In this document: piece after piece, positions 10,501-34,702 of the stretch
Numbering within the stretch: the first letter of the stretch is position 1
How the letters are laid out: each line of letters opens with the position of its first letter
Source: Apoderus coryli
Taxonomy: Eukaryota > Arthropoda > Insecta > Coleoptera > Attelabidae
Direction: 5' to 3'
NCBI GenBank assembly: GCA_911728435.2
Contig: OU452202.1
Coordinates: forward strand, 62,001-126,000
DNA length: 64,000 nucleotides
Position numbers and translations under genes: made by a program
Notes under the pieces: model-generated
The model's database searches: none
What the model saw: only the letters and a program-made list of their open reading frames with translations
What the model was told of the DNA's origin: nothing

Positions 10501-13500
10501 GTAACAATGAGGAAGTGCTTTCCATCTTTTATATCTGCAAAAATAATGCCAGAAAAAATAAAAATTGCAAAAATTTGTTTTTTCAAGAACTCTCGAAAAC
10601 AGCTTAAGTTAGTTTAATTTTGAAAACACCAATTTAAAGGTGTTTAAATTATACAACTTTTCTCTAATTGAACCGACATTGTAACTCAACAATAAAAAAT
10701 TCAGGGCTGTATTTAAAAAAATCTATTCGATGATGCTTTTTAAAAACACGAAACGTCGTAGTGAAAATTGGTAAACGTTATCTTTTTCTCCTCAAAAAGT
10801 AACAATGAGGAAGTGCTTTCCATCTTTTATATCTGCAAAAATAATGCCAGAAAAAATAAAAATTGCAAAAATTTGTTTTTTGAAAAACTCTCGAAAGCAG
10901 CTTAAGTTAGTTTAATTTTGAAAACACCAATTTAAAGTTGTTTAAATTATACAACTTTTCTCTAATTGAACCGACATTGTAACTCAACAATAAAAAATTC
11001 AGGGCTGTATTTAAAAAAATCTATTCGATGATGCTTTTTAAAAACACGAAACGTCGTAGTGAAATTTGGTAAACGTTATCTTTTTCTCCTCAAAAAGTAA
11101 CAATGAGGAAGTGCTTTCCATCTTTTATATCTGCAAAAATAATGCCAGAAAAAATAAAAATTGCAAAAATTTGTTTTTTGAAAAACTCTCGAAAGCAGCT
11201 TAAGTTAGTTTAATTTTGAAAACACCAATTTAAAGTTGTTTAAATTATACAACTTTTCTCTAATTGAACAGACATTGTAACTCAACAATAAAAAATTCAG
11301 GGCTGTATTTAAAAAAATCTATTCGATGATGCTTTTTAAAAACACGAAACGTCGTAGTGAAATTTGGTAAACGTTATCTTTTTCTCCTCAAAAAGTAACA
11401 ATGAGGAAGTGCTTTCCATCTTTTATATCTGCAAAAATAATGCCAGAAAAAAATAAAAATTGCAAAAATTTGTTTTTTGAAAAACTCTCGAAAGCAGCTT
11501 AAGTTAGTTTAATTTGAAAACACCAATTTAAAGTTGTTTAAATTATACAACTTTTCTCTAATTGAACCGACATTGTAACTCAACAATAAAAAATTCAGGG
11601 CTGTATTTAAAAAATTGTATTCGATGATGCTTTTTAAAAACACGAAACGTCGTAGTGAAAATTGGTAAACGTTATCTTTTTCTCTTCAAAAAGTAACAAT
11701 GAGGAAGTGCTTTCCATCTTTTATATCTGCAAAAATAATGCCAGAAAAAATAAAAATTGCAAAAATTTGTTTTTTCAAAAACTCTCGAAAGCAGCTTAAG
11801 TTAGTTTAATTTTGAAAACACCAATTTAAAGGTGTTTAAATTATACAACTTTTCTCTAATTGAACCGACATTGTAACTCAACAATAAAAAATTCAGGGCT
11901 GTATTTAAAAAATTCTATTCGATGATGCTTTTTAAAAACACGAAACGTCGTAGTGAAAATTGGTAAACGTTATCTTTTTCTCCTCAAAAAGTAACAATGA
12001 GGAAGTGCTTTCCATCTTTTATATCTGCAAAAATAATGCCAGAAAAAATAAAAATTGCAAAAATTTGTTTTTTCAAAAACTCTCGAAAGCAGCTTAAGTT
12101 AGTTTAATTTGAAAACACCAATGTAAAGTTGTTTAAATTATACAACTTTTCTCTAATTGAACCGACATTGTAACTCAACAATAAAAAATTCAGGGCTGTA
12201 TTTAAAAAATTGTATTCGATGATGCTTTTTAAAAACACGAAACGTCGTAGTGAAAATTGGTAAACGTTATCTTTTTCTCCTCAAAAAGTAACAATGAGGA
12301 AGTGCTTTCCATCTTTTATATCTGCAAAAATAATGCCAGAAAAAATAAAAATTGCAAAAATTTGTTTTTTCAAAAACTCTCGAAAGCAGCTTAAGTTAGT
12401 TTAATTTTGAAAACACCAATTTAAAGGTGTTTAAATTATACAACTTTTCTCTAATTGAACCGACATTGTAACTCAACAATAAAAAATTCAGGGCTGTATT
12501 TAAAAAATTCTATTCGATGATGCTTTTTAAAAACACGAAACGTCGTAGTGAAAATTGGTAAACGTTATCTTTTTCTCCTCAAAAAGTAACAATGAGGAAG
12601 TGCTTTCCATCTTTTATATCTGCAAAAATAATGCCAGAAAAAATAAAAATTGCAAAAATTTGTTTTTTCAAAAACTCTCGAAAGCAGCTTAAGTTAGTTT
12701 AATTTTGAAAACACCAATTTAAAGGTGTTTAAATTATACAACTTTTCTCTAATTGAACCGACATTGTAACTCAACAATAAAAAATTCAGGGCTGTATTTA
12801 AAAAAATCTATTCGATGATGCTTTTTAAAAACACGAAACGTCGTAGTGAAAATTGGTAAACGTTATCTTTTTCTCCTCAAAAAGTAACAATGAGGAAGTG
12901 CTTTCCATCTTTTATATCTGCAAAAATAATGCCAGAAAAAATAAAAATTGCAAAAATTTGTTTTTTGAAAAACTCTCGAAAGCAGCTTAAATTAGTTTAA
13001 TTTTGAAAACACCAATTTAAAGGTGTTTAAATTATACAACTTTTCTCTAATTGAACCGACATTGTAACTCAACAATAAAAAATTCAGGGCTGTATTTAAA
13101 AAAATCTATTCGATGATGCTTTTTAAAAACACGAAACGTCGTAGTGAAAATTGGTAAACGTTATCTTTTTCTCCTCAAAAAGTAACAATGAGGAAGTGCT
13201 TTCCATCTTTTATATCTGCAAAAATAATGCCAGAAAAAATAAAAATTGCAAAAATTTGTTTTTTGAAAAACTCTCGAAAGCAGCTTAAATTAGTTTAATT
13301 TTGAAAACACCAATTTAAAGGTGTTTAAATTATACAACTTTTCTCTAATTGAACCGACATTGTAACTCAACAATAAAAAATTCAGGGCTGTATTTAAAAA
13401 ATTCTATTCGATGATGCTTTTTAAAAACACGAAACGTCGTAGTGAAAATTGGTAAACGTTATCTTTTTCTCCTCAAAAAGTAACAATGAGGAAGTGCTTT

Positions 13501-14689
13501 CCATCTTTTATATCTGCAAAAATAATGCCAGAAAAAATAAAAATTGCAAAAATTTGTTTTTTCAAAAACTCTCGAAAGCAGCTTAAGTTAGTTTAATTTT
13601 GAAAACACCAATTTAAAGGTGTTTAAATTATACAACTTTTCTCTAATTGAACCGACATTGTAACTCAACAATAAAAAATTCAGGGCTGTATTTAAAAAAA
13701 TCTATTCGATGATGCTTTTTAAAAACACGAAACGTCGTAGTGAAAATTGGTAAACGTTATCTTTTTCTCCTCAAAAAGTAACAATGAGGAAGTGCTTTCC
13801 ATCTTTTATATCTGCAAAAATAATGCCAGAAAAAATAAAAATTGCAAAAATTTGTTTTTTGAAAAACTCTCGAAAGCAGCTTAAATTAGTTTAATTTTGA
13901 AAACACCAATTTAAAGGTGTTTAAATTATACAACTTTTCTCTAATTGAACCGACATTGTAACTCAACAATAAAAAATTCAGGGCTGTATTTAAAAAAATC
14001 TATTCGATGATGCTTTTTAAAAACACGTACATTTATGAATATTTATCGGAGCCTTTCCTGAAGGGACATCATATATATGAAAATGTCTGTCAGTAATTAG
14101 TTTTTGGATAACATTTTTAAAATGTAAGATATCTACTTACAGCTAATTATTGAATAATATAACAAATAAATTTATAAACATACCATTTGTATTAACTCCA
14201 GATTCACCAGTATCAACTGTTGTACTATCTACTATTATATTGCTACATTCAACAACGGCACTGTTATTAGCAATGATAGCACCTTCTTCATCTGACTGTT
14301 CATTTTCCATAACTACAGATATTTCATGAGGTCCTCTACTACAACCTGGTACTTGGCTTTCGGTAGCAGTACCCGGTTCTACATGTAACTGTGTTATGGT
14401 TAACTGACTACTCAGATCAGTATTTGTTGATACTACAAAATGTTATCAATTTACTTAATAAATTAGCTATTATAGGCAGACACAAATAATTTAGAAAAGG
14501 AAAATAATGTTTCGAAGAATATTCTTAGTGATTGAAATGTAACCAACAAAGTATATAAAATATTGATTACTTACCTGTACTTGCTTGTGTATTAGATAAT
14601 GTATCGGTTTTCGTTTTCTTTTTTCTTATATTTCCCCGGGAATCACGTCCTTTTTGGGAACAAAGATTTGATTTTTTTCGTCGCGGCAT
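1561..14689 (-). CDS. Helitron Rep/helicase (RepHel), seven exons, apparently intact
   Basis: This is a rolling-circle transposase. Exons on the minus strand are 14689-14575, 14432-14184, 9775-9665, 8754-8611, 6659-3993, 3931-3502 and 2938-1561. All six introns are GT-AG, every junction keeps frame, and the sum is 5094 nt (1697 aa plus stop). Exon 1 begins MPRRKKSNL, a basic start I recall as typical of animal Helitrons. Exon 5 has a Cys-rich segment (CIFCG...CCKGGK), the HUH motif PHAHIV near residue 789 and paired catalytic tyrosines in YLHKY near 925 and 929. Exon 7 is a Pif1-type helicase: Walker A GCAGAGKT near 1257, DEMSM, GDFRQTLPV, NKSQGQTF and YTAFSRT. Exons 2-4 are hydrophilic linker with an NKRLRR basic patch. 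The long introns hold younger insertions. Termini of the element were not found. A domesticated copy is possible but less likely. Confidence 0.92.
3070..3325 (-). repeat. Half copy of a dispersed inverted-repeat element in Helitron intron 6
   Basis: The end reads TTTTGGACACAGTATATAAT and the body matches both the units at 10080-10200 and the element at 30248-31104. It lies within the 563-bp intron 2939-3501. Only one terminal half is recognisable. Confidence 0.6.
6992..7108. mobile_element. Short MITE (about 117 bp) in Helitron intron 4
   Basis: The ends are inverted copies of GTGAACAGTTTT. The interior resembles the copy at 8386-8528 (shared TCTGCAAGTAAAGGTTT). It is non-coding and is one of two copies of the same family in the intron 6660-8610. 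Confidence 0.65.
7140..8245. repeat. Dispersed repeat with two diverged direct copies and a CA microsatellite
   Basis: 7315-7505 and 7990-8240 share a long diverged block (AATTAGCGAG, GGTAGAGCGTTGTCGGT, CACCCTGTAT/ATACCCTGTAT). A CA-rich microsatellite with ACAGACAGAC at its end occupies about 7803-7857. All of it lies in Helitron intron 4. No protein-coding content was seen. Confidence 0.65.
8386..8528. mobile_element. MITE of 143 bp, second copy of the GTGAACAGTTT family
   Basis: The 16-bp ends CTAAAGTGAACAGTTT and AAACTGTTCACTTTAG are exact inverted complements. The interior matches the copy at 6992-7108 with an extra segment. It lies about 80 bp from Helitron exon 4. Confidence 0.75.
9032..9502 (-). 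mobile_element. Decayed mariner-type derivative with residual transposase coding
   Basis: Inverted ends CTGG(G/A)TG...TTTATAAACGCACACCC are flanked on both sides by TA, the Tc1/mariner target duplication. On the minus strand the interior keeps a degenerate coding stretch reading QVQFCYQMLQRMNENQQFS, which resembles the region before the first catalytic Asp of mariner transposases (compare RLQFCEAMSQRL in the intact element at 57632). The core is deleted, so it is non-autonomous. It sits in Helitron intron 3. Confidence 0.7.
9836..14025. repeat. 298-bp minisatellite array inside Helitron intron 2
   Basis: The marker AATGAGGAAGTGCTTTCC recurs at about 10206, 10505, 10804, 11103, 11401, 11698, 11996, 12294, 12593, 12890, 13189, 13487 and 13786, a spacing of 298-299 bp and about 13 units. 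Units are nearly identical, differing at scattered positions such as GAACCGACA/GAACAGACA. 9836-10200 holds more diverged units and one end of the parent element (AAGATAAGAATGGAATAGCA), also seen at 30248. The last unit stops abruptly at 14025. The array lengthens the intron to 4.4 kb without touching exons. Confidence 0.9.
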
Positions 14690-15182: not shown

Positions 15183-17036
15183 TCCTGCAATATTTGTGTG
15201 GATTAGTTCGATAGCTTTCATCGTTAGGTAATGATTGCAGGAGGTTAAATATAACAAATAGGTGTATAACCTAGAGTATCATTTACATTTAACGGTCAAA
15301 AATTAAGCGCTAAATATTTAACCGTTTCAACATAATATGTGCGTTTTAAATCTGGCAACACCACACTTCGATTACAATCTGAACTCCCAAAACTCGTCTA
15401 ACTGCGCAGCGATGTATCGATTAATTTTGCCAATAATCGTTTTTACAATTTAACATATCGATTTTAAATATATCGATTTTGTGAACTGGATTTATTAATA
15501 GATTTTGCCTTCTACCTGCTCAGTTCAACTGAGCCGATGATCAACTACCACTCATTTCACTTTATTTTCTATCCACGGTATGTCTAAAGTATCATTGGTT
15601 ATCGTTCGTCCATTCGTTTGTTCGTTAATGGCCTTCACCAATGGGTATTTAGCCAGCTTCACGTGTATGAAAGAATTTTATTTTACTGTCTGTGAATGAG
15701 ATTTTTGGATCAGAAAAACTCTTGAGAAAAACGAAATAGTAATGTGAATATTTATTAGTGAAATGTCTGCATTTTTTGTTCAATTGTCTCTCATACATCT
15801 TTCTTGTATAAATTCTTGACAGTTAACCACGAAATTATCTAATGCATAAGTAAGTAGGTGAACATAGCTGCTTTTTTTCGCTAGTTTTTTTGATCCGAAT
15901 TTATTAATCAGGATTTATTAATCAGGATTTGTTGGATTTCTGAGTCGTGATTCTTTTCATTCTATTAACAGTTAACCAAGAAATTAATCTGAATATGTTG
16001 CATAAGCAGGTAGGATACACTGTAGGTAATCATGCTGCAGCTGTTTAGCTGATCTGAGTTGACACTTCTAGATTCACGTCATAAATAAATAGGTTATATT
16101 ATGGGGCTTGGAGGTTAAAAGTAAACAGTAGTAGTATGCATTTTAACTTGTAACTATATTTGATAAAAATAAACTGTGCTGGCTGTATCCTACTGTGAAA
16201 GGGCAAGAGGCCAATAATAGTTAGTACTCGCTTAGGCGGTAACTTAAAAAAAAAAACGAAATAACTTGAAGCATTCAAAATATGGACCTACAGGCAAGAG
16301 ACAGAAATCAATTTGGAAATGGAAATTTGGTCGCCAGCATCCGCTAATAATAATAATACGTGGTGTATAAAATAAAAAGTGTAGTTAATTCTATATTGAT
16401 TTGTTGTGTTTACGGTTTATAATTTTTGTATAAAAACATGATAAGTACTATTTACACAGAATATTACTTATTCTGTGCTATTTTTATGAATATATATAAT
16501 GGCTATACTTACTTAAAGACTTAAACTTAACAAAATTACGTACCTATTTTGTTTCATTGAATGTTTTTGATCTAGGTCATCATCTGTAATTAGTTTTTGG
16601 ACAAAAACAGGTAGGTAGGTAGGTAGGTAATGAGACTTGTATTTTATCCAGTTCTTTGTAACGTAAGAATAAATTCGGTATCAGGAAATTAAAACTAAAT
16701 GTAGGCATTTTAATTTAATTTAGTAGTGGAATTTGTAAATTAAAAAAGAAACCCTAATTTTTTAGTAAATAAATCGTAAGATAAACAATATGACGTCATC
16801 CAAAACATATGATCAAATTCTCTCGATCTTAGATACGTACGTCGTACGTATGACATCATTTTAAATAATAGTATTGTTCCACAGATGACAATAAGTCCAC
16901 TTATATCAAGCTGCGAATATTTGTGATAAAGTGAAGCAAAATTTGTCACGCAATGAGATAAACAAAGACAAATAATACTGCTTTAATTCACATGCAGCCA
17001 GCGTAAGTATGCACCTACAGATATTGTGAAATCCGT
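15183..17036. other. AT-rich sequence without recognised genes
   Basis: Nothing coding was supported. It contains a short GGTA microsatellite near 16610-16630. A segment from about 16510 to 17490 has an inverted, rearranged counterpart near 38170-38420, so part of this stretch is a dispersed repeat. Confidence 0.5.
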
Positions 17037-19440
17037 TTATATAACAGATAACGTAGGCACCACTGTCCTAATGTACGTAGTTAGTTATGCTACCCTTCAC
17101 CACCTGATCTATTATAGGAATGTAGTAACGACGTACGTATGAATATCTACTTTCTTGACAAATGGAGAACCTTTGTATAAAATTAGCCAGCTAAGTACCG
17201 TACGTCGTTAGTTATTTGGAAACTATCCTGACCCTGACCGGATGAAATTGACCTAGTAACCTTTATACAACATTTATTATTAACCTATTATTAATATAAT
17301 ATACTAAATTTAATTAATTAAACAGGTAAAGTTAGGTTTAATAGGAGAATTGTAAATCTATAATAAAATTAGTCAGCTAAGTACGTACGTCATTAGTTAT
17401 TTGGAAACAACCCTGACCGAGATCAATAAGATGAAATTGACCTAGTAACCTTTAGTTTAGTTTCAAACAAATCTAAATAATAATGTACCTACCTTCCTTT
17501 TTATAAACTTCATTCAACATAAACGACATACCTACCTAGGTTTCTCAAACAAATTCTTCCTGATAAATGACGAACCTTATAAAAACTGTAAATTGTAATT
17601 GTTGGTATTTTCTGATCGAGAATAAGTTTCAGTAAATAGTAGATACTTAGTTTTACAAAGTACTCACGTTGTTAAAAGCATATTTATGTAGCTGGATGTA
17701 AAAAATGTTGTCTGTATTGTGGCCTTTTTATAGACTTCATTAATAAAAAAATATCTCTACTGGTAAAAGTAGGTACTTCCTTATTTGCATTGTTTTTGTA
17801 TATTTCTGTATCTATCACTTTGGAATAACAATAATATGTTGTTTACCGTTGATGTGGTAGGTATTATGTTTTAATTTTAAGAATATTAGCCTGTTTGTTT
17901 TGATCATAATATACCTAGTAGGTAGCTAACAACAACAACAAATGTTTGCCTGAAATATTGAATACCTATTATGTATTTGTATTAAACTACTTACTGTGCA
18001 AGTGTGTATGCTATATTTACTAATGTTTATTAATTTCGATAATTTGTGTTTATTGTTGTTGTTCTTTGCGGAAGTTTATGATGAGTGGCCATTTGCAAAA
18101 TTGGAGTGACTGGTCACGGAATTAGTCGAGTCGAAAACGATGTGCGCCATTGTTGCCATATTGGGCCACATTCTACAAAATCACTTTCTGGGATAATTAG
18201 ATTTGGAATTAAAGCAGTTGTTAAAAAATTAGATAAGCCTTCACTGTTCATGGCAGTATTTTATAGGTTATGTATGTATGTATTATTTTCAATTGCAATG
18301 GATGAAAGAATTTGAATGTGTTTGTTTGTGAAAAGGATAGGCATCATAGCCAAATGAAACATAATGTTCATTTCCTGTGTGGTGGTCGTTAGTGTCGCCT
18401 CTATATTGAAGGCAAAAATGGGTGTCATCGGTATGATTTTATGTGGTTTTTCGCACATTTTGTAAGTAATTTTGCAAATGTTGCGTATATCAGTGTCTTT
18501 TAAATTTTGTTCTTTATATTTAACATGTGTTTTTAAAGAGTGTCATTGTATATTTATTTGGAAAAATGTAAAAGAACGTTATGTGTGACAGCTGAACTAA
18601 ATTAGATTTGTCAATTTTAAGGAATATACCAGTCGCATTTAAGGTTTGATAGATTAATAAAAATGAAGGAAAAACGCAATAATTGAAAATATAGGATATG
18701 GAAAAGGCACAGTGGCGTACCAAATATGCTTGTACGTAACTTTAAAATTGTTTTTGTACCTAAACACAGCACCAAAACAGGTATTTATTTCAAAGTAATA
18801 GCAGTACTTTATAATGCTTTTTTCTTGAATTTCCTCGTAGAAAATCGTATTCACCTCCTTGTCACGCTAAAATATCGTTTCTGCACAGGTAAATAAATGA
18901 ATAAAATACATAATTTTAATGCATTGAATCAGCTTTGATATATAGCCTATCGGGTGATGCAAAAAATAAAGTTGCCATATAGGAAACACTGTTGGAACGC
19001 CTCCGGCGTTCCTTTGCGTTTATTCGCACACAACTTTGTGCTTTTTTTCCCCATTTTAGAAAGAAACGGACTGTACGCTCGTTATTATATGTAACAAGAA
19101 ATCCCTTCGGGATTTCCCAGTCGTTGTGTGGTAGTTTTATCTATAAAAAAAGTCATTGAGGGTGGCTAAAAAAATGAAAAAAAAAATCAAAAAAAAAAAT
19201 TTCAAGGAAAAAAATGTTTCTATTATTAAAAAAAAATTAAAAAAAAAAAATTAAAAAAAAAAAATTTAAAAAAAAAAAAATTTAAAAAAAAAAATTTAAA
19301 AAAAAAATAATTCAAAAATTAATTAAAAAAAAGTATTGCCAGAGCTGAAAATCTGAAAATGTTTCTATCTATTATTGAAAATAAATAGAAACATTTTTGA
19401 GTTACCCCGTAGAAAACCTCTAGGAGCATATAGTTTAACT
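17037..19440 (+). repeat. Segmental direct duplication, copy 1
   Basis: It matches 21772-24060. About 18060-19130 against 22660-23730 is nearly identical; the outer part (17037-17640 against 21772-22320) is more diverged with indels. Short open frames occur in both copies, but no domain, splice model or codon conservation supports a protein. The distal end is a hairpin-ended element starting near 19090 with ACAAGAAATCCCTTCGGGAT, followed by an A-rich tract at 19165-19330. Confidence 0.85.
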
Positions 19441-21727
19441 TTCAAAGAAATCTTGAATTGAAACCCAAAGAAATCAAAAAGTTATTCAAAACAATACTAT
19501 TTCACCTTAACAAAATAAAGAAATACATTTGTGATTCACCCTGTATATATATTCTACCTTATAGTTTAACTTTCACAGAAAACTTAATTTGAAATCTAAA
19601 GAAATCAAACAATTATTCAAAATATAACTTTTTTGACCATAACAAAATAAAGAAATACATTTTTGATTCACCCTGTATATATATTCTACCTTATAGTTTA
19701 ACTTTCACAGAAAACTTAATTTGAAATCTAAAGAAATCAAACAATTATTCAAAATATAACTTTTTTGACCATAACAAAATAAAGAAATACATTTTTGATT
19801 CACCCTGTATATATATTCTACCTTATAGTTTAACTTTCACAGAAAACTTAATTTGAAATCTAAAGAAATCAAAATATTATTCAAAATATAACTTTTTTGA
19901 CCATAACAAAATAAAGAAATACATTTTTGATTCACCCTGTATATATATTTGACTCTATAGTTTAACTTTCACAGAAAACTTAATTTGAAATCTAAAGAAA
20001 TCAAAAAATTATTCAAAATATAACTTTTTTGACCATAACAAAATAAAGAAATACATTTTTGATTCACCCTGTATATATATTTGACCCTATAGTTTAACTT
20101 TCACAGAAAACTTAATTTGAAATCTAAAGAAATCAAAAAATTATTCAAAATATAACTTTTTTGACCATAACAAAATAAAGAAATACATTTTTGATTCACC
20201 CTGTATATATATTCTACCTTATAGTTTAACTTTCACAGAAAACTTAATTTGAAATCTAAAGAAATCAAAATATTATTCAAAATATAACTTTTTTGACCAT
20301 AACAAAATAATGAAATACATTTGTGATTCACCCTGTATATATATTTGACCCTATAGTTTAACTTTCACAGAAAACTTAATTTGAAATCTAAAGAAATCAA
20401 AAAATTATTCAAAATATAACTTTTTTGACCATAACAAAATAAAGAAATACATTTTTGATTCACCCTGTATATATATTCTACCTTATAGTTTAACTTTCAC
20501 AGAAAACTTAATTTGAAATCTAAAGAAATCAAAAAATTATTCAAAATATAACTTTTTTGACCATAACAAAATAAAGAAATACATTTGTGATTCACCCTGT
20601 ATATATATTTGACCCTATAGTTTAACTTTCACAGAAAACTTAATTTGAAATCTAAAGAAATCAAAAAATTATTCAAAATATAACTTTTTTGACCATAACA
20701 AAATAAAGAAATACATTTTTGATTCACCCTGTATATATATTTGACCCTATAGTTTAACTTTCACAGAAAACTTAATTTGAAATCTAAAGAAATCAAAAAA
20801 TTATTCAAAATATAACTTTTTTGACCATAACAAAATAAAGAAATACATTTGTGATTCACCCTGTATATATATTTGACCCTATAGTTTAACTTTCACAGAA
20901 AACTTAATTTGAAATCTAAAGAAATCAAAAAATTATTCAAAATATAACTTTTTTGACCATAACAAAATAAAGAAATACATTTTTGATTCACTCTGTATAT
21001 ATATTTGACCCTATAGTTTAACTTTCACAGAAAACTTAATTTGAAATCTAAAGAAATCAAAAAATTATTCAAAATATAACTTTTTTGACCATAACAAAAT
21101 AAAGAAATACATTTGTGATTCACCCTGTATATATATTCTACCTTATAGTTTAACTTTCACAGAAAACTTAATTTGAAATCTAAAGAAATCAAAAAATTAT
21201 TCAAAATATAACTTTTTTGACCATAACAAAATAAAGAAATACATTTTTGATTCACCCTGTATATATATTCTACCTTATAGTTTAACTTTCACAGAAAACT
21301 TAATTTGAAATCTAAAGAAATCAAAATATTATTCAAAATATAACTTTTTTGACCATAACAAAATAAAGAAATACATTTTTGATTCACCCTGTATATATAT
21401 TTGACTCTATAGTTTAACTTTCACAGAAAACTTAATTTGAAATCTAAAGAAATCAAAAAATTATTCAGAATATAACTTTTTTGACCATAACAAAATAAAG
21501 AAATATATTTGTGATTCACCCTGTATATATATTTGACCCTATAGTTTAACTTTCACAGAAAACTTAATTTGAAATCTAAAGAAATCAAAAAATTATTCAA
21601 AATATAACTTTTTTGACCATAACAAAATAAAGAAATACATTTTTGATTCACCCTGTATATATATTTGACCCTATAGTTTAACTTTCACAGAAAACTTAAT
21701 TTGAAATCTAAAGAAATCAAAAAATTT
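19428..21727 (+). repeat. 132-bp minisatellite, about 17 units
   Basis: The unit begins near ATAGTTTAACTTTCACAGAA and ends near CACCCTGTATATATATT, recurring every 132-133 bp from 19561 to 21673 after a more diverged first unit at 19428. Two unit types (TTCTACCTTATAG and TTTGACCCTATAG junctions) are interspersed. The homologous place in the second duplication copy (24027-24140) has a single diverged unit, so the array grew in this copy only. Confidence 0.9.
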
Positions 21728-21771
21728 CATCAACTAATCTAAAAAACTCTGAAATTTATTGCTTTGCCCTT

Positions 21772-24060
21772 TTTATAACAGATAACGTAGGCAACACTGT
21801 CCTAATGTACGTAGTTGGTTGCTGCCGTTCAACACCTGATGTATTATAGGAGTCTAGTAGCGACGTACGTATGAATATCTACTTTCTTGACGAATGGAGA
21901 ACCTGTTATAAAAACTACTAATGTATATATGATCAAGATTATAAGAAATAGATAATTACCAGAAAAATAAGTACCTATTATTAATATAAAATACTAAATT
22001 TAGTTAATTAAACAGATAAAGTTAGGTTTAAAACGAAAATTGTAAATCTATAATAAAATTAGTCAGCTAAGTAGGTACGTACGTCATTAGTTATTTGGAA
22101 ACAACCCTGACCGAGATCAATAAGATGAAATTGACCTAGTAACCTTTAGTTTAGTTTCAAACAAATCTAAATAATAATAATAATGTACCTACCTTCCTTT
22201 TTATAAACTTCATTAATAAGTACAATATAAACGACATAATAAGGTATCTCAAAGAAATTCTTCCTGATAAATGGCGAACCTTAATTGTAATTGTTGGTAT
22301 TTTCAGATAGAGAATAAGTAAGTAGGTACTTACTTACTTGCATTGTTTTTGTATATTTCTGTATCTATCACTTTGGAATAACAATAATATGTTGTTTGTA
22401 TTTGTTACTTACGGTTGTGATGTGGTAGGTATAATGTTTTAATTTTAAGAATGTTAGCCTGTTTGTTTTGATCATAATATACCTAGTAGGTAGCTAACAA
22501 CAACGAATGTACTACATTTTAGGTATAGACGGCATGATATACCTATTTGTCTGAAATATGGAATATTATGTATTTGTATTAAATTACTTACTGTGCAAGT
22601 GTTTTTTGCTATATTTACTACTGTTGTTTACTCATTTCGATAATTTGTGTTTATTGTTGTTGTTCTTTGCGGAAGTTTATGATGAGTGGCCATTTGCAAA
22701 ATTGGAGTGACTGATCACGAAATAAGTCGAATCGAAAACGATGTGCGCCATTGTTGCCATATTGGGCCACATTCTGCAAAATCACTCTCTGGGATAATTA
22801 GATTTGGAATTAAAGCAGTTGTTAAAAAATTAGATAAGCCTTCACTGTTCATGGCAGTATTTTATAGGTTATGTATGTATGTATTATTTTCAATTGCAAT
22901 GGATGAAAGAATTTGAATGTGTTTGTTTGTGAAAAGGATAGGCATCATAGCCAAATGAAACATAATGTTCATTTCCTGTGTGGTGGTCGTTAGTGTCGCC
23001 TCTATATTGAAGGCAAAAATGGGTGTCATCGGTATGATTTTATGTGGTTTTTCGCACATTTTGTAAGTAATATTGCAAATGCTGCGTATATCAGTGTCTT
23101 TTAAATTTTGTTCTTTATATTTAACATGTGTTTTTAAAGAGTGTCATTGTATATTTATTTGGAAAAATGTAAAAGAACGTTATGTGTGACAGCTGAACTA
23201 AATTAGATTTGTCAATTTTAAGGAATATACCAGTCGCATTTAAGGTTTGATAGATTAATAAAAATGAAGGAAAAACGCAATAATTGAAAATATAGGATAT
23301 GGAAAAGGCACAGTGGCGTACCAAATATGCTTGTACGTAACTTTAAAATTGTTTTTGTACCTAAACACAGCACCAAAACAGGTATTTATTTCAAAGTAAT
23401 AGCAGTACTTTATAATGCTTTTTTCTTGAATTTCCTCGTAGAAAATCGTATTCACCTCCTTGTCACGCTAAAATATCGTTTCTGCACAGGTAAATAAATG
23501 AATAAAATACATAATTTTAATGCATTGAATCAGCTTTGATATATAGCCTATCGGGTGATGCAAAAAATAAAGTTGCCATATAGGAAACACTGTTGGAATG
23601 CCTCCGGCGTTCCTTTGTGTTTATTCGCACACACTTTTGGTCTTTTTTTCCCCATTTTAGAAAGAAACGGACTGTACGCTCGTTATTATATGTAACAAGA
23701 AATCCCTGCGGGATTTCCCAGTCGTTGTGTGGTAGTTTTATCTATAAAAAAAGTCATTGAGGATTATAAAAAAAAAGGAAAAAAAAAATTAAAAAAAAAA
23801 AATTTAAGGAAAAAAATGTTTCTATTATTAAAAAAAAAATTAAAAAAAAAATTTAAAAAAAAAAAATTAAAAAAAAAAAAATTAAAAAAAAAAATTTTCA
23901 AAAAAAATAATTCAAAAATTAATTAAAAAAAAGTATTGCCAGAGCTGAAAATCTGAAAATGTTTCTATCTATTATTGAAAATAAATAGAAACATTTTTGA
24001 GTTACCCCGTATATCACCTCTAGGAGCTTATAGTTTAACTTTTAAACAAATCTTGAATTG
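21772..24060 (+). repeat. Segmental direct duplication, copy 2
   Basis: This is the partner of 17037-19440. It has the same order: a diverged outer block, a near-identical central 1.1 kb, then the hairpin-ended element from about 23697 and an A-rich tract (23765-23935). It continues through one unexpanded 132-bp-type unit into unrelated sequence near 24150. Confidence 0.85.
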
Positions 24061-24149
24061 AAATCAAAAAATTAATGAAAATATTACTTTTTTGCCGTTA
24101 ACAAAATAAATAAATAAATTTTTGACTCACCCCGTATATAAATTTAAAG

Positions 24150-25165
24150 TGCTTATGTTAAAAATTTGTAAATATTTAAAAGTTATTTAAATTGTATTCA
24201 TATATTAATTTTGTGCATCATTTTCTTTATATTCATTTTTATTTGTTCTTGTAATGAATTATAGTTTTGTACATAAATAAAACACATTAATTTTTTTTAC
24301 ATATTTATTTGATGTTAATGAATAATAGTTTTGTAGATATATAAAACATTAATTTGTGTTTATGTAATTTTTATTTTATTTTAAATAAAAAACAGGTACG
24401 GACTTTAGGGACAATAAATTTTTCTCTTTTTTTTTATTAGAAGGCTAGCATTTAACATTTTGCGGTAAAAGTATTATTTAATTCAAAAATGAAAATTTAT
24501 ATCTCATAAAACATGGCAACTACGTGGTTTCTGTCAATTTTATTTTAGGAGATAAAATGTAACGTCAGATTGTAATAATAAGACATCAATATATAAATCT
24601 GAAAAAAAAATTGTATTAATAATGCCACACCTATAGTCATTGTTTTTTAAAAGACAATGGTATAGTTGATAAAATATTGCTGATATATCATATTTCTATT
24701 TAATTGTTATGGAAAAAATGATAAAATTACTGTCCCCAAAGTCGTTCGTAACTTTTAAACAAATTTATAATTATTTTTTATTAATACTATCAACTATTTT
24801 AGATAACAAATTATATTTTAAAATCTGTAAAAAAAAAGTATTGTTTAGTAGGTACAGTATTAATTGTATGTTCTTTATAGCCTAATTAAAAGTGATAGTA
24901 GTGTATGGTCAGATATTAGTTTTAACTTAATATTTTGCTAGTAAAATAATAATTTTTAAATGAATTCATTAAATAAAAAAAAAAGAAACTACGAAGTCAT
25001 CTTAACAAAGTTTTTTTATTAATATTGTATAATAGTATTAGCACGTTAGAAATATGTTTCAAAATATAAATTTGCATCATCAGTTAAATTAACTAAAAGG
25101 GAACAATGGTATGCAACAACAAACAGTTTTAGTGTTCAATTTTGTTTTGTTAAAAAATGTATGTG
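24150..25165. other. AT-rich sequence without recognised features
   Basis: No gene, inverted repeat or tandem array was recognised. It lies downstream of the microexon gene on that gene's strand and may include its 3' UTR. Confidence 0.4.
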
Positions 25166-28100
25166 TTAAATTAGTAATATATAGAAAAGAAAAATAGGAA
25201 GAAATATTATAAATTGTTCATGTCTAAAAAATGACCATTTATTTTGATTGATGATAAGGGGTTTATATTTCCGAAACATGTTTCTGATGTGTTGGTAATG
25301 TGATACCAATAAATGAATTTTGTGCAGATGACGTTGTAGTTTGTGGTAACTTAGTGCATTCCATTGTGAAAATGGACTATTTTTCAATATTAATAAGGTA
25401 GTATTACTCTGATGACATTTGTATTTCTTTTGATTGTAATTTTAATATTTTATTGTATAATAAATGTTTTTTCAACATAAATAATTTTGCAGATAATTTT
25501 TGTGTTTTTGTAGTTGATATATTAGATATTATGTAAATTTTGTAGGTATTAGAAATATGAAAAATATTTACCAACTCTTCGTCGGCCCTTCTCGGCGCAT
25601 TCTGAAAAAAAAAATATATAAATAAATTTATTTATGTATGCTATGCGAGTTGTTATATTGACATAATATATAAATAAATTTTAGTTTTTGTACATTATTA
25701 ATACAATGATGGGCTACTTAAAAAGAAGTAATTTTAAAATATTGTTAATTTATAATTTTAAAATATTTAAATTAATGTCATTTGATGTAAGTGGAAAATG
25801 GGAGATAGTGGTGGATTGTTGCTAAGTAATTGAAAACTAATTAAAATTTATTAATATTATAAGTTAATATAAACTTACTTCTCTGTATTGTTGATGTTGA
25901 TTGTACTGGAAATAAAAAGTATAAATTAGGATATGTTGGAAGTAAATTTAATGACATATAATATAGGCAATGATATAGGTAAAATATAAGTATTTTTTAT
26001 TCACTTACAGGATTATGTCGGCGCCGGCGACGGTGGTTATTACGGTTATTATTTCTGGTGTTGTTCTAAAATGTACAATTTATTAAGTAATTTGAAAGGT
26101 AGAATTAGCTTTAAAATAGGTTTAAAGCAAATTTTGATTGTGTAGGTTTTTATATAGGTACTGACGAGTTTAATTTCTTTGTGTGTGTTTCAGTGTAATT
26201 GTATTGAATTATAATAGGACATTGTTAATTTAAAGAAATTATTATATTATCGGGGAGATCAATAATTAATGTTTCTTGCTGTCACAAAAATATTTATATC
26301 TAATTGTACTGACGGATAGATTTTTGTTGTGATTGAAAATATAATATTAAAAAATAATATAAAGTAATACATATTTAGTAATTACAGTCACATTAATGTT
26401 AAGTCAGTCATCTTACTGATTATTTTCGAAGCTAATTTATTTTTCTCAATGTATGTAAAACATGGTTTTTGATTACCTCATTTTATAGTAAGATTTAGTA
26501 GGCTAAGATGTTGTTAATGTATATTTTTTAAGAATGATATAGGTATTTCTTTTTTCTTATGAGTATTGAATGATTCTTATTAAGTATCGTGGTGTGTGGT
26601 GGTGTTTATAGTAATAATCATATTTTTTAAATGTGCTCTGTTAATGGTATGTAATACTGTTGGGCAATAAAGCAATTATTATTATTAAATAGAAATTAAC
26701 TCACATTTTCTGGGCGTTCCGTGGTGGTAGGCTGAAATGAAGTTGATTTAATTATTAGTAACAAAAGTAATACATATTTAGTAATTGTAGTATATATTAA
26801 ATATAAAGTAACTCACATTAGATTCTCGTTTTTTGGGAACAGGGATATGCTGAAATGGAGTTGATTTAATTATTAGTAACAAAAGTAATACATATTTAGT
26901 AATTGTAGTATATATTAAATATAAAGTAACTCACATTAGATTCTCGTTCTTTGGGAACAGGGATATGCTGAAATGGAGTTGATTTAATTATTAGTAACAA
27001 AAGTAATACATATTTAGTAATTATAGTATATATTAAATATAAAGTAACTCACATTAGTTTTTCGTTCTTTGGGAACAGGGATAGGCTGAAATGGAGTTGA
27101 TTTAATTATTAGTAACAAAAGCAATACATATTTAGTAATTACAGTATATTAAATATAAAGTAACTCACATTTTCTTCTAAATTTATGGCATCAAGTATTG
27201 GCTGAAATGGAGTAGATTTAATTATTAGTAATACATATTTAGTAATTGCAGTATATGTGGTGGAAGTTAGCATCAAACGCAGATTCAAGATTCACGTTTT
27301 TACAGTCAATCAGATAAGTAAGGAATATGTTAAAATAAATGTATTAAATATTAATATCTCACACATCAGTTCAGACTAAGTTTTTATTTTTCAACTATTA
27401 AGTTTGTTTTTAATCAAAATTTGTCAAAATCAAGCAAAATTGGACAAATAAAGAAACATTGCATTCATTTTACCGCAAAAGGATAATTATATTATTTTTA
27501 AACTAACAAATAATTTCTACCAAACCAACCTTTGTCCCACTTTTATATTTTAAGAGTAAATGTATATTCAAAGAGCAAATATGTGGTTAAAATTAATTTC
27601 CAAATTCTCTCTTGTGGCGGCCTGTAAGTGATAGTGAGCATATACTTTACATTGTCTATGTTGTTATCTAACGTATTCTGAAAATCTGACATGGTAGGTT
27701 CTATAGTTTCGTAGTGCTTAATTTTTCATCAACAGAAGGATTTTGGCTGTTATCTTAGTACGCCCCTGCGACGGTTTGTCCTTTTGTGTTATCTTTGAAT
27801 TTGGAAATTTACTTTTAACCACATATTTCCTGTTTTGTTTGAATTTAAATTTACTTATACAATATAAAAGTGGGACAAAGCTTGGATTGATAAAAATATT
27901 TTTTTTAAATAAAGAAGTGTTATGAAAAGTATAATATAAAGCACAAAGTAATTCACAGTTAAATGAAAACCCTATAAAAATGTAAGTAGTTTTAGAGATA
28001 TTTATCCTTATTATATATATTAAATAATATGTTACTTGTATGGTACATTTGAATACTTTGGTGGCGTCTATTTTTTTTTTGTGAAAATCAAATGTTAAAA

Positions 28101-28170
28101 TATTATGATACATTTAGTTAAAATACTCACTTCTATAGCTTTATCGCCTTCCATTATTCGTATTATTAAT
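25166..28170 (-). CDS. Candidate microexon gene (ten exons, all phase 0)
   Basis: I do not recognise this protein. On the minus strand, exon 1 (28170-28131) has ATG at 28154 and encodes MEGDKAIE. Internal exons are 27201-27169, 27085-27053, 26967-26935, 26849-26817, 26731-26705, 26065-26009, 25905-25879 and 25601-25572 (33, 33, 33, 33, 27, 57, 27 and 30 nt). Each is flanked by AG and GTGAGT, GTAAGT or GTAAAT and begins and ends in phase 0. Peptides in order: PILDAINLEEN, PIPVPKERKTN, HIPVPKERESN, HIPVPKKRESN, PTTTERPEN, NNTRNNNRNNHRRRRRHNP, YNQHQQYRE, NAPRRADEEL. A possible last exon, 25408-25166, continues in frame to a stop, has a hydrophobic C-terminus and is the least certain part; the whole would be 179 aa. 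No signal peptide is visible. A 5' UTR or further first exon upstream, with a donor near 28288, is possible. Aphid bicycle genes are also microexon-rich, but as I recall use other phases. Confidence 0.65.
26732..27085 (-). repeat. Tandemly duplicated exon-intron cassette, 118 bp, three units
   Basis: Exons 3, 4 and 5 of the microexon gene (33 nt each, consensus [HP]IPVPK[EK]R[EK][ST]N) lie in nearly identical 118-bp units of 33-nt exon plus 85-nt intron. The unit with exon 2 is a more diverged relative. The repeat unit itself is not a multiple of 3, but because only the 33-nt exon is kept, each added unit adds 11 residues without shifting frame. Confidence 0.8.
27525..27885. repeat. Foldback inverted repeat in the first intron of the microexon gene
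   Basis: 27525-27610 and 27775-27885 are inverted, imperfect copies (TTTGTCCCACTTTTATAT and its complement; ATATGTGGTTAAAA and its complement). The long minus-strand open frame across it is best read as a by-product of this structure, not a gene. Confidence 0.6.
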
Positions 28171-30247
28171 CTAAAAGAATAACTACTGTAAAAAAAATTA
28201 TTCTAGTTAATAATTGAAAATGTACTTACAGTTTTTTTGGCATATATTTTTAATGTGTATAAGTGAAATATTTACCTTGGTTACTTACCAAAAACAGAAA
28301 GGCATCAAGGTATCTTGAATATTTATTGAAAGAGAGAGTTATTGTGATTGGTTATTGTAATATACTTACAAAATATCGTATTGGTTAATTACCTCACTAA
28401 AATTTTGTTGTATTATAATAATTTACCTCTTCGGGTTATTTTATTTTTTTTTAATGAGTATTTAAGAAGTTTCAACAGTAGTTTTGTTTATGTATATTAA
28501 CATAATCGTTACGTTGTTAATGGTCTTTAGCAATGGGTATTTAGCTAGTTTCACGTGTAGTATATTTGTCTGGACGCCAATTAAAGGGCTGCTGCCCATA
28601 TCCATAGTGTAGTCTTCGTGTTTGATTTTTTATAGTTAACTTGGCGAGTATGATTACGAGTATATCCAATGTGAATGATTATTAAGGTTATGCTTATTTG
28701 TTTTTTTACTAATTAGATTCTTCTTCTTTTTTTCAAGTTAGGTTGCCTCTTGCGATTTAATAGCAAACAGCCAGTGTTTTATCAATTAGATTAGGGTGAC
28801 ATTTAATATTATTATTTTTCACTCATGTAATTTGCATTTTTCTATTAAATGGAATGTAAAACTGTCAAATTCATCATTGAATATACTATACTTATTCTTC
28901 TCAGTTAATTCTTGATTAATATTTTAAAAGTATTATATTTTTATAAAGACAATGACAGAAGTGTATATAACGGAAGTTATGCAATATCTTTAAACAGCGA
29001 ATTAATGGTTGTCTATATATGTAATTTATATTAGTAAGTTTCACTGAGTTGTAGATTTTTCCTCACAAATTTTTTTGACAGTTGAGAAATAAATTTGAAA
29101 ACGATTCATTGCCGAAGATAATTTTGAAATATGTTGGTTTTGCTTTTAATAGAAAATGCAAGTGAGGTGAGTGGTAGGTAATTATGTTCGAACAGCTCAG
29201 CTGAAATTTGAGTTAGGAAACGATAATGTTTTAGTTACTCATTGTTTTATAAAGCTAATGATTACACTAATTATATCGATTTTTTATTCATTTTTTTAAA
29301 TATTCAATTTTAGTTAATATTAAAAGCAAATAGTTATTGTATATGATTTGTGATGATTAAAACAGCATTGGTAGATAGATCTTATTTGTTATAGTGATAT
29401 TTTTAATATGTTGAAATTAGTATTAATATAGTATACAGGGTTTTTGAACATAATGTCAAAATTATAAATACTTTTCATTTTCATATGATTTAATTGATGT
29501 AGTTTATTTAAATTAAAAAATAATTTCAATGGTATATTTATTTGGAATAAATCAAATATTGATATTTGTTAACATTTGTTTTATTATCAATGTAGGTACA
29601 ATAACACTATCAATTTTTTTTAAATTTTAATTATGAAATATATACATTATTGAAATGAATTTTTACGGAACAATGATAAATGAATATGAAATGAACTATA
29701 AATATCTATGTATATATACATGTTTTTAATGCAAAAAAGTCTTGAGATATACATCGTTAAATTAGTTATTTCAGACGGTTGATGATTTTTAATTTTAATA
29801 AAATCGATTCGTTTAGAGAAATTTCATGTTGAGTTTTTATTTGAATTTGTTTTATATTTTAAAAATTATTTGTTATATCAACATTATTTTCATTTAAAAA
29901 GTTAATTTAAAATTGGAAAATTTATTTAAAACAAATCATTAGCCTTCTGAAATAATCAATACATTATGATGATTTATATTGTACATATATGTTGAAACTA
30001 ATATAATTAAGAAAAAAATTGGAAGTTAGATTATACTAAACAGAAATGATCTCTAATAATTAAAATATAATATTCACTACCTGGATATAATACAAAACGA
30101 AATATTAATAATAGTGTTTATGTAATTAGAACAAAATATTTCACTCAACGAATCTGTGGAAATTATTTATTTTTGCAAAGTAGTAATTTCTGGCAAAATT
30201 GGTGATCCATACATTTCTGAAAGTGTATATTAAACGTTTGCATGAGT
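28171..30247. other. AT-rich intergenic sequence
   Basis: No gene supported. It may contain the promoter and 5' exon of the microexon gene near 28171-28330 (possible donor GTAAGTAACC on the minus strand at 28288). Beyond that only simple AT-rich sequence was seen. Confidence 0.4.
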
Positions 30248-31104
30248 TTACACTGTATTCCAGATAAGAATGGAAAGCATTGGAATTTTGGAAACGGTAG
30301 GAGGTACAATATCTATTAAATTAAAGAAAAGTTGTACAATTTAAACATTTTTTAAATGCTGTTTTCGACAGTATTTGAAAAAACGATATTTTGGATTTTA
30401 GCTTTTATTTGTGACAAAATATATAAATTATGATAATCATTTTCTCATTGTTATTTTTTGAAGATAAAAAGATAGTGTTTATAAATTTTCACTATGACGT
30501 TTCGTTTTTGGAAAACCATAATCAAGTTGGTTTCTTTAAATATGGCCTAAACTATTTTATTATTAAATTTAAATGTAATGGTTTAATTATTGAAGAAAAA
30601 TGGTTTTAGTTTGACATGTAACTGACTGGACTGAATTCAAATTAGTAGGCTTTTTTTTTGTTGGTATTTAGAATTATTTAATTATTATTTGACAATTTAT
30701 TTCTGTTTTAGTACAACATTTTATTCGGTTCTTTAATTTAGCTGAAATAGTTGTTCTTTTTGAAGTTATTAAAACACGCTTTACTCAGATGAATGTTGTA
30801 TGCAAAATAAGTGCCAAACTATGGTGAATTTTCCTGTATAATGTGAAATAACAGCTAAAAATACTGAATTTTTTTTTTAAACTATTATATGTGATATACT
30901 ACTTATTTGAAAATAACTTTAAATTTAATAATAAAAAATTCAGTGCCGTATTTAACGAAATTAACATGATGATGGTTTTTAAAAAACGAAACGTCTTACT
31001 GAAAATTTGTTAATGCTATCTTATTTTTCTAAATTAGTTGATATTGTAATTCTTATAGTTTCAAAGATTTCAATGAGATTGTTCTCTTATTTTGGACACA
31101 GTAT
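30248..31104. mobile_element. Dispersed inverted-repeat element related to the 298-bp array
   Basis: The left end (ACTGTATTCCAGATAAGAAT) and right end (TCTTATTTTGGACACAGTAT) are diverged inverted copies followed by matching subterminal sequence (TTGGAA/TTCAAA, AAAGTTGTACAATT). The interior contains units homologous to the Helitron intron array (ACGAAACGTC, AATTCAGTGCCGTATTTAA). It looks like a single-copy form of the element whose interior was amplified at 10206-14025. Confidence 0.6.
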
Positions 31105-31859
31105 ATGTAAATATAAAATCAATGAAATAATTTTTACAATAACAATTAGATCATTGATTTTTTTGACTGTAATTATATTAAAAATTAATGGTATACCTTT
31201 TTTGTTGTTGGAATTGGGTTAAATTTATTCGTTACCTATACACAAATTAGGTATATAAATGGCAGCATAATCATAGAATTGTTGTGGTATTATTGTCTTA
31301 GTCATTCAATGTTTGGCATCCTAAAATTCAGAAGTATGTCAAATTGTAAATTTTTAAAATTCAATATCGTAGAAACGGTGTGATGTTTTGAAAATTTAAA
31401 TCATTGACGGTGATTGAATATTTAAAAAAAAAACAATTATTTTAACAAATTGATTGATACAGGGTAGTAATAAACTGTATGATATACTACTAAAAATAGA
31501 CATAAAACAGGTTTTTCTGCAATAATAATAAGTGTTTAGAAAAATGGGTTTATATTTGTTCTTGTAATTATTTTTTAATCATAAAATATAATTTTATGCA
31601 AAGTGAAAGGTGAAAGTAGATATTAATTTCCGGTGTAAGTGGAAGTGGCTGAAATATTATAATATCATAGAATTATACAAACTGGATTGTTTTAAGTAAA
31701 CATACTAATTTTCAAAGTAATTGTATGTTTAGTTTTGCCAAAATTTCGAATATAGCATTGATCAATACCTATGTACAATGTATTATTATACCTTATTATA
31801 AAATGTTGTTTCATTAATGTTTGTTTGGCAGCTGAAAATAATTATATGAATAAATTTTA
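31105..31859. other. AT-rich sequence without recognised features
   Basis: No coding, RNA or repeat feature could be supported here. Confidence 0.35.
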
Positions 31860-33343
31860 AGTTTTACAGAATTATTCGAGGTAATATCTTGGAATTTTAA
31901 TTGTCCATACATTTTTCAATTGTGTAGCATGCACACAGAAGAATTTTTGTATTATTTCTGTGATGATATATTGTGTTTTGTCGTGGATATCTTTTTCATT
32001 GAATATGTTTTCTGTACTGTGGGATATCTAAAAACAAATAATAATGTGAGTATGTTGTGAAAATTGAATAAATGTATTTACTTTAGAATTTTAACGCTTA
32101 ATAATAATTGGCATAGTATAATATATATACAAAATAACATGTTGTATTATCTTTATGACGACATATTTTGTATTTGGAGTCGACGACATCATCTTCATTG
32201 AATTTGCTTTGTGTGTTATGGTGTATTTCGGGAAAATTTTTTGAATATTACTAAAAAGCAATATGTCATGAATATTTTGACAAAAAATGAAGAAATCTAT
32301 TACCTTGGAATTTTAACTGTTAATTAATGTTGAAATGATGTATTATATTATTATTATGTACTATCCTTTGGAGTCCATTTTGCGAATATGTGATTGAATC
32401 AATTGAGTGAAACTAATGAATACATTTTCTTAGAACTATACAATATTATTTGTATTTGAATGTGAATTTCAAGTGTTGATTATAATTGTATTTAGAATCC
32501 TTTTTTACAGTATAATAAAATTTAAAACTAACTCAAATGTGACAGAATAATTTAATTAACAAATATTGAAAATTTAGAAGTTATGTGCAAGTTAAAAATA
32601 GTTTTACAAATATATAGATATTTTTTTATTAACTTTTTTGCATTTTAATTAATTCATTATTGAAATATAAGAACAAAATAAAAATTATAATTCTGTGGTT
32701 GGATGGCAACATTATTGAAGTGTTGAATTTTTGGTAATTTGTAGCGTCAAAACAATTATACAATAGAAATAAATATTTGAAATAATTATGCTTGGAATAT
32801 AATATTGAAGTATAAAAGTACTTCCATATGGTATTATTTTTTTGATTTAATTTTTTTAAAACAAATAATTTTCATTGGCAATGTCATTCAACCATAGAAT
32901 AATAATTTTGAATTTCATAATAATAATATAAAGTAATTATCTGAGGAGGATATAATGAAATAGCACAACTCGATAATGACAACATAATGTATGTTAACCA
33001 ATAGAGGTCCATATTAATGATCAACTCAATATTGGTATCAAAATGTCAATATGTCAAAAGAGGCGCTTATTGTTATTATTATTATATTTTTTGTTAATAT
33101 GAGATTTTTAGAAAAACCTTAATTATTAGAAGAAAATTATCTGAGGAGAATACAAAGCAATAGCACTACTCGATAATGACAACATAATGTATGTTAACCA
33201 ATAGAGGTCCATATTAATGATCCACTCAATATTGGTATCAAAATGTCAGTATGTCAAAAGAGGCGCTTAAATTTTTTTGTTAATAAGAGATTTTAGAAAT
33301 ATCTCAATTATTAACAATTTTAAGATATTCTCAACTCAGATTT
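31860..33343 (+). repeat. Large direct repeat, copy 2, ending at the assembly gap
   Basis: It matches 1-1345 in the same orientation, including the internal tandem blocks and a copy of the 184-bp MITE (32686-32904). The match runs up to the last base before the N tract (CTCAACTCAGATTT), at a point equivalent to about 250 bp before the Helitron stop codon in copy 1. Confidence 0.8.
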
Positions 33344-33443
33344 NNNNNNNNNNNNNNNNNNNNNNNNNNNNNNNNNNNNNNNNNNNNNNNNNNNNNNNNN
33401 NNNNNNNNNNNNNNNNNNNNNNNNNNNNNNNNNNNNNNNNNNN
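33344..33443. other. Assembly gap, 100 N
   Basis: Exactly 100 unknown bases, the conventional placeholder for a gap of unknown size. Sequence on either side is unrelated. Confidence 0.98.
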
Positions 33444-34237
33444 GGTACGTACCTAGGAACATAAACAAATCTAGCTGAAATACCTTTAAATAAACATAAA
33501 AAGTATTGTATTTTAAACTACTTACGTAAAAAAGCTTGTATAGCCTTTTCAAGTGTTTGTTTACGTACGTGGAATATGTTTAACCTAGCATACATCAAAA
33601 ATCGAATTTTGGCTAGTTTGGCTTGGTATTAATAGAATATAATTACCGTGTACAATTACCAATATTAGTATGGATTTTATTATGTTTTTTCTATTTTCAA
33701 ACAAATTAAAAGGATTTATATTTTATTTCAAAATGCCACTTGTTATAATTGTCATACAGCAAATTTTAGCTCTTTAGTTCCTTGGTTGTCAGATTTATTT
33801 TGTCCTAGCATATAAAATATGTAATATATTTATATGGGAGAATATTTTCGTAAAAGTAGATTTGAAACTAAAGTTTTCGTGAAAGAAAATTGAAAATAAA
33901 GATTGGCTAATTTAAGTTTGTGGTTAATTAACTTGTGTTGGGTATGTAATTGAATTGGGATTGATTGATTTTGGTATTTAGATTGAATAAAGTGTGGCAA
34001 CCGCGATTTTCGCAATTTTTCTAGGTTGTTGTCACATTTTGAATGAATTGCATGGAATGACATAAATAATATGGATGTTTTTCAACAACGAAATTATTTT
34101 AGTTAAGGTAAAATAAAATAAACTTGGGGAAATTAAGATTATATTTAATTAACCATCTGGGGGTGTGTCGGATCTAAATAGGTGTCAGTTTAATTAAGCT
34201 ATTGCGCGAATAATAAGTACGAGCTGTAGGATAGAGA
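33444..34237. other. AT-rich sequence without recognised features
   Basis: Short open frames exist but have no recognisable domain or splice structure. Confidence 0.35.
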
Positions 34238-34702
34238 TAATTTGAAAGACATTCTGGCAGCCTTGCATTGTAAGTTGGTATGTTGTTTAAGCGAGTAGAT
34301 TCCATAATCAAATCTGTTTTCTTTTCTATTGACTTTACTTTAATGAAAAATGTGACGAGAGAAGATGAGCCTCACTAAAAGTAGCCTACCGCCTATTCTC
34401 AATATTTAACTGTATGCTAAAACACATGGCATATTTTACACTTGTTTTGATTGTCAGAAATCCGTGCCCAACTTTATCCTGTTTTCGTTCAAGAGTGAAT
34501 AAGGGCACAAAATTTATAATTCTTGATGTTTCCCTTCAAAGGAGCCTCACCAAAAGTAGCCTACCGCCTATTCTCAACTGTTTGTAAAAACACATGACAT
34601 ATTTTACAATTATTTTTCTTCGAAGGAGATACGTACGAACTTTTACTCGTTTTCGTTGAAGATTAGAGTGAATAAGGACTCTCACAATTTATATTTCTTG
34701 AC

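Follow-up and report, generated by a model that had tools for sequence, protein, structure and literature searches.

A probable phase-0 microexon gene in Apoderus coryli, with a duplicated cassette in which exons diverge beside conserved introns

A chain of nine short exons

A stretch of 64,000 nucleotides of Apoderus coryli DNA (assembly GCA_911728435.2, contig OU452202.1), hereafter the window, to which all positions given below refer, carries on its minus strand a series of nine short segments, E1 to E9, that probably belongs to an as yet unrecognised gene made of phase-0 microexons, a view in which splice scan, simulations and reading frame agree. The nine segments lie between positions 28154 and 25572, all of them where a first-pass annotation had located them, and they have the splice signals, lengths and phase that it had claimed: the acceptors of E2–E9 are AG, the donors of E1–E9 are GTGAGT, GTAAGT or GTAAAT, and each length (24, 33, 33, 33, 33, 27, 57, 27 and 30 nt, in that order) is a multiple of three. 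Once joined, they make 99 codons, in phase 0 throughout and free of stops. The eight predicted internal exons are all in phase 0, and E2 is open in that frame only.

The chain begins with E1 (28131–28154), 24 nt that encode MEGDKAIE from an ATG and stop at a GTGAGT donor; alternatively, it would be internal to the gene and begin at 28185, 28182 or 28170. Four exons of 33 nt follow, E2 (27169–27201, PILDAINLEEN), E3 (27053–27085, PIPVPKERKTN), E4 (26935–26967, HIPVPKERESN) and E5 (26817–26849, HIPVPKKRESN), and then comes E6 (26705–26731, 27 nt, PTTTERPEN), shorter than its sister exons by exactly two codons. The next exon, E7 (26009–26065, 57 nt, NNTRNNNRNNHRRRRRHNP), has a weak acceptor, which makes it fail the strict scan used below, and it rests on its donor, length, frame and content in guanine and cytosine (GC). 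The last two, E8 (25879–25905, 27 nt) and E9 (25572–25601, 30 nt, with a GTAAAT donor), encode YNQHQQYRE and NAPRRADEEL, respectively.

A cassette whose exons diverge and whose introns do not

Exons E2–E6, together with flanking intron, form a tandem array of a 118-bp cassette that comprises one exon and one intron (26705–27256, minus strand, as delimited from repeat calls and alignment). Tandem Repeats Finder places the 118-bp repeat between 26728 and 27231, and E2–E6 are the copies of its exon with the accompanying splice signals. From one cassette to the next the intron flanks are 93–100% identical, the downstream flank of E6 apart, while the exons E2 and E6, which are the diverged members of this conserved setting, share 52–61% identity with E3–E5 and 48% with each other. 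When E2 is compared with E3, mismatches are found at 14 of 33 exon sites and at 3 of 94 aligned sites of the flanks; when E6 is compared with E5, they are found at 13 of 27 exon sites and at a single one of the 60 sites of the upstream flank (Fisher p 2e-7 in both comparisons, with gap columns excluded and sites taken as independent). In the gap-free 81-bp core of the E2/E3 pair, 14 of the 15 mismatches are exonic, a concentration reached in 1 of 100,000 permutations; the segment that best captures the divergence runs over bases 3–30 of the 33 that make the exon. Among E3–E5, all four variable exon sites alter the amino acid. What the array displays is cassette duplication with divergence limited to the exon.

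The other arrays of the window provide a control. Six of them, chosen from 39 repeat rows for having long units in two or more complete copies (a choice that leaves out a 79-bp array at 44358 and the arrays of short units), were searched for pairs of units holding a 33-bp block diverged by at least 38% within a remainder diverged by at most 6%. After gapped alignment, none of 360 pairs shows such a block, against three of the six pairs among E2–E5, all three involving E2; E6 lies outside this test. Without gaps, 11 apparent matches come up elsewhere (4/66, 0/136, 1/120, 6/36, 0/1 and 0/1 pairs for the six arrays) and none among the six pairs of the gene array, which is then cut in another register. 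As no match remains elsewhere once gaps are allowed, we take these 11 to be slips caused by indels.

Could chance have produced the series?

A strict scan was made for exons of 18–66 nt preceded by [CT]AG after at least 9 pyrimidines out of 15 and followed by a GTRAGT or GTAAAT donor. The pyrimidine threshold is our own choice, and it matters at the margin: E3–E6 score exactly 9, and E7, with 8, is missed. Between 24.0 and 34.7 kb of the minus strand, 7 of 11 candidates have a length that is a multiple of three and are open in phase 0; the remainder of the window, both strands taken together, gives 5 of 42. Simulations with a second-order Markov model yielded on average 0.33 such candidates, with a maximum of 3 (n=500), and the maximum rose to 4 among 3000 simulations of the 24.0–34.7 kb region.

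These figures must be tempered. The first-pass annotation had argued as if the nine exons were as many independent coincidences, and this does not hold: five of them, E2–E6, stem from one duplicated cassette of 118 bp, so that the number of independent units falls from nine to about five. If the copies of the cassette are pooled as a single unit, the strict scan is passed by three families (the repeated unit, E8 and E9). At least three distinct phase-0 exons were met in 0.43% of 3000 simulations when the whole 10.7 kb was considered, and in 0.1% (p=0.001) when they had to fall within 1.7 kb.

Base composition adds to the picture. In a background where GC is 0.23, E6 (0.56), E7 (0.47) and E9 (0.60) stand as islands, and windows of equal length reach these values in 0.29%, 0.14% and 0.02% of cases, respectively; E1 and E3–E5 are intermediate. 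A scan of the long introns and of the upstream region with a weight matrix revealed, besides E2 and E8, no candidate of suitable length open in phase 0; this matrix, made by hand from the consensus, is insensitive, as witnessed by the scores that it gives to the acceptor of E7 (-0.3), to those of E3–E5 (1.3) and to the donor of E9 (2.3).

The predicted product

The 99-residue peptide encoded by E1–E9 contains no cysteine, phenylalanine or tryptophan, has an isoelectric point (pI) of about 9.8 and a grand average of hydropathy (GRAVY) of -1.94, and 80% of its residues are of the kinds usually counted as disorder-promoting. The product would thus be small, basic, cysteine-free and probably disordered. 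The first-pass annotation recognised no matching family, and we are led to the same view, as searches among proteins, viral contigs, Pfam families and structures gave no homologue: 14 pattern matches in viral contigs were not confirmed, the two matches in Pfam fell short of significance (E 0.53 and 2.5), and no solved structure matched at E<=1. Across the window, Rfam models at their gathering scores and transfer RNA scans had no match either.

The ends of the gene and the upstream region

Behind a strong acceptor, an exon could begin at 28185, 31 nt ahead of the ATG of E1, and the frame is open back to that point, which leaves the ATG, put forward by the first-pass annotation as the start of the protein, unproven in this role. 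At the other end, the same annotation proposed a terminal exon of 80 codons (25166–25408, minus strand). This exon is unsupported, because its acceptor is weak (6 pyrimidines out of 15) and because open frames of at least 80 codons are common by chance, being present in 84.7% of 300 simulated regions. Two candidates on the same strand, both unproven, each combine a pyrimidine-rich acceptor with 17 codons to a stop: one lies at 24771–24824 (GC 0.09), the alternative at 24545–24598 (GC 0.22).

The gene lies within a 12-kb segment where C exceeds G on the minus strand, its sense strand (22266–34369). It is the highest-scoring segment of its kind in the window, at 406.9, against 107.1 for the next one of the same sense and 136.0 for the best of opposite sense, and it may mark a transcription unit beginning near 34 kb. 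Its lower end enters repeat DNA.

Between 28.2 and 34.7 kb, a single hydrophobic first-exon candidate that could encode a signal peptide was found, at 32140–32082. We rejected it, as it does not exceed what chance yields: among 400 simulations, 79% hold at least one hydrophobic candidate and 41% one in the correct phase. In addition, the ATG of this candidate is absent from a paralogous copy. This upstream region (31977–33343) is indeed present twice, being 75% identical, in the same orientation, to positions 17–1308 of the window. The latter copy starts near the left edge, where a sister locus or a dispersed repeat may adjoin outside the window. A run of 100 N at 33344–33443, about 5 kb upstream of E1, is probably a scaffold gap and could hide a first exon. 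Intron 1 holds an open frame of 131 codons (27718–28113, minus strand), in part within an inverted repeat; it stands between the 95th (125) and the 99th (147) percentile of the longest simulated frames and is probably due to chance.

Repeats and transposons around the locus

The surrounding DNA is rich in repeated sequences. Two copies of one element in direct orientation (17033–19553 and 21767–24144, about 80% and 93% identical in two stretches) enclose an array of a 132-bp satellite (19429–21726), and further long satellite arrays occupy 10206–14027 (298 bp), 45915–47705 (110 bp) and 54309–56017 (182-bp period). A mariner-like transposase frame, apparently intact, is found at 57587–58705; it is 96% identical to a database protein, and among the best 120 of its 3198 matches those with a named organism come from a scorpion and two beetles. 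Helitron frames run from 1561 to 6675 on the minus strand, with Helitron_like_N and PIF1 each on an open frame of its own, so that the element is either split by introns or interrupted. The nearest named relative of the protein carrying Helitron_like_N is from Anoplophora glabripennis (49%), an aphid protein being at 31% (44 matches); its named relatives are mostly insects (beetle, wasps, ants, moth and aphid), with soybean, fish and frog in addition. The two sets of transposon relatives make an insect source likely and lend no support to a hemipteran one.

Interpretation

That a minus-strand gene is real at this place appears to us very probable. We infer transcription, splicing, translation and selection alike from the sequence, and the more detailed account that we favour, with moderate confidence, is that of an orphan coding gene with at least nine short exons in phase 0, which grew by cassette duplication and in which exons changed faster than introns. 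It would encode a small basic protein; part of it would have expanded by tandem duplication of the 118-bp unit of one exon and one intron; and within the cassettes change or replacement of the exon would have far outpaced that of the intron. Two routes can be conceived for this last step: selection may have favoured new peptide sequence while recombination homogenised the introns, or exon segments may have been switched wholesale. As all internal exons are symmetric, the gain, loss or skipping of a cassette leaves the frame intact, and new versions of the protein would arise cheaply in DNA, possibly also in RNA, where skipping of symmetric exons is a possible source of protein variants that the phases would allow. 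The product may act at some interface that evolves fast, be it in the secretion of a gland, in contact with a host or in reproduction.

A number of observations weigh against this account. The GC content of E2 (0.27) and E8 (0.30) is ordinary. The downstream flank of E6 is merely 70–74% identical to its counterparts, and the upstream flank of E2 does not have 9 bp that are present in the other cassettes. Furthermore, E2 and E6 occupy the two extremities of the array, where divergent units can occur; the strongest pair of another array, with 33% divergence in the block and 2% outside, likewise involves an end unit, its unit 0. Among the young copies the excess of exonic changes is not significant (Fisher 0.09 for E3 against E5; permutation p 0.065 for E3/E4 and 0.41 for E4/E5). 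Neither the first nor the last exon is certain, and no signal peptide was found in the E1–E9 model. No protein homologue was found: 117 candidates of a word-based search yielded none at E<=10, and, the database including named insect proteins, this negative result means that there is no annotated relative within the reach of a word search. Finally, when E2 and E6 are compared with the other copies, the proportion of synonymous differences (pS, 0.42–0.51) is as high as that of nonsynonymous ones (pN, 0.39–0.55), both being far above the introns.

This last point bears on the driving force. Synonymous sites are few (6.0–7.5) and codons with multiple hits can inflate the synonymous count; even so, a pS as high as pN fits poorly with selection on amino acids by itself, and we reject positive selection as the sole cause. 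Either the exons would be old and the introns homogenised by recombination, or exon segments would have been replaced.

Among competing explanations, the one that survives best, plausible while falling short of an even chance, is that of a secreted gene akin to those of effectors or venoms, with a signal-peptide exon upstream and E1 as an internal exon from 28185; it can overlap the account that we favour. The strong acceptor before 28185 and the frame open through the ATG speak for it, as does the skew extending to about 34.4 kb, which may mean that transcription starts upstream, and secreted families that combine microexons with rapidly changing exons are on record (PMC9168663, PMC4350168). 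It is weakened by the fact that the only hydrophobic first-exon candidate found is at chance level and that its ATG is absent from the paralogous copy. A bolder and rather doubtful extension would see here a hitherto undescribed family of microexon genes in phase 0, related neither to bicycle genes nor to the MEGs discussed below, in which cassettes duplicate within the gene and only the exon is exchanged, making an in-frame peptide library rewritten in DNA; the copy of the upstream region at the left edge would then be part of a sister gene lying beyond the limits of the window.

It is unlikely that we are looking at a decayed gene, the genuine exons of a once longer one that lost its ends. 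The want of a convincing terminal exon and of a homologue would fit, as would the inverted repeat in intron 1 and the repeats around the locus; decay is however difficult to reconcile with nine exons that have intact splice signals and frame, and with E3–E5 cassettes that kept their splice signals and acquired neither stop nor frameshift. To a similar degree we doubt that the product is an intracellular basic protein translated from the ATG of E1 (DNA- or RNA-binding, for example, or a sperm nuclear protein) with no part in host interaction: the arginine-rich block of E7, the pI and the model's want of a signal peptide are compatible with it, but none of this is specific, as basic sequences of low complexity are not diagnostic. 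Less likely still is the idea that there is no gene, only a minisatellite with a variable block and chance splice signals. E2–E6 do form a tandem repeat, AT-rich DNA does yield long open frames by chance, and here again the missing homologue would be expected; against this stand the divergence bounded by splice sites and keeping the frame, absent from the six other arrays, the dissimilarity of E8 and E9 to the array, the simulations and the GC islands.

Should the orphan gene with its duplicated cassettes be confirmed, exon divergence beside nearly identical introns would make an internal clock within one gene, where the introns date the duplications (unless they were homogenised) and the exons reveal to what extent coding sequence was replaced. 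Segment switching would become testable inside a single locus, and the microexon design of fast-evolving secreted families would be extended to another phase and another type of protein. Gene finders and sequence searches readily overlook exons of such small size, which likely makes this a blind spot. If transcripts bear it out, the locus would illustrate, within a short stretch of DNA, how fast a protein can be remodelled.

Comparison with known systems

Bicycle and megacycle genes come first to mind, as they have many microexons of uniform phase and evolve fast, and as megacycle genes of aphids show internal tandem duplication (PMC9168663), as is the case here. That the present gene is itself of the bicycle family is extremely improbable, uniform-phase microexons and rapid exon change notwithstanding: the internal exons of bicycle genes are almost all in phase 2 (PMC9168663), unlike the eight phase-0 ones found here, and the bicycle gene-structure classifier, with coefficients and a cutoff of 0.72 taken from the same source, gives linear predictors of -31.5, -30.2, -29.6 and -29.6 for four choices of terminal exon, that of the first-pass annotation included. 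The same exons set to phase 2 would score 4.7 to 6.7. There is no CYC motif, with 0 cysteines in 99 residues, and no signal peptide was found in the model, though one may lie on an exon farther upstream; the missing cysteines are not exclusionary by themselves, as some members are described without the canonical CYC motif (PMC9168663) and cysteine-free bicycle proteins are on record (PMC13041983). Phase, classifier score and the want of cysteine together are the reason why we do not file the gene as bicycle, in keeping with the first-pass annotation, which had already set it apart. In a limited survey of the literature, no insect gene of such a type was found described apart from the bicycle and megacycle genes.

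The MEGs of schistosomes are closer in design. Their coding region consists mostly of very small symmetrical exons, whose skipping keeps the frame, and it evolves fast (PMC4350168); here, the predicted exons E2–E9 measure 27–57 nt, are all multiples of three in phase 0 and make up most of the coding sequence, which is likewise safe against skipping and prone to change. The differences are that MEGs, by the same account, seem confined to platyhelminths and carry a signal peptide in every case, while the present gene is from an insect and has a model in which no signal peptide was found, though an upstream exon may encode one. Alternative splicing, from which MEGs derive variants, may occur here as well. 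For the pattern of divergence, it is the ASSET of snake toxins that comes nearest, where introns are highly similar between copies and some exon segments are distinctly different. This is what is found on both sides of E2 and on the upstream side of E6. ASSET acts between entire genes whose fold is conserved, whereas here the change is between cassettes of one gene, involves each time a whole microexon and concerns a protein without cysteine; the mechanism of segment switching is called unknown in the paper on these toxins (PMC2474615). By analogy, then, and with no claim that the gene is a member of the MEG family, we may understand its architecture as working like that of a MEG, and its divergence as proceeding like that of ASSET.
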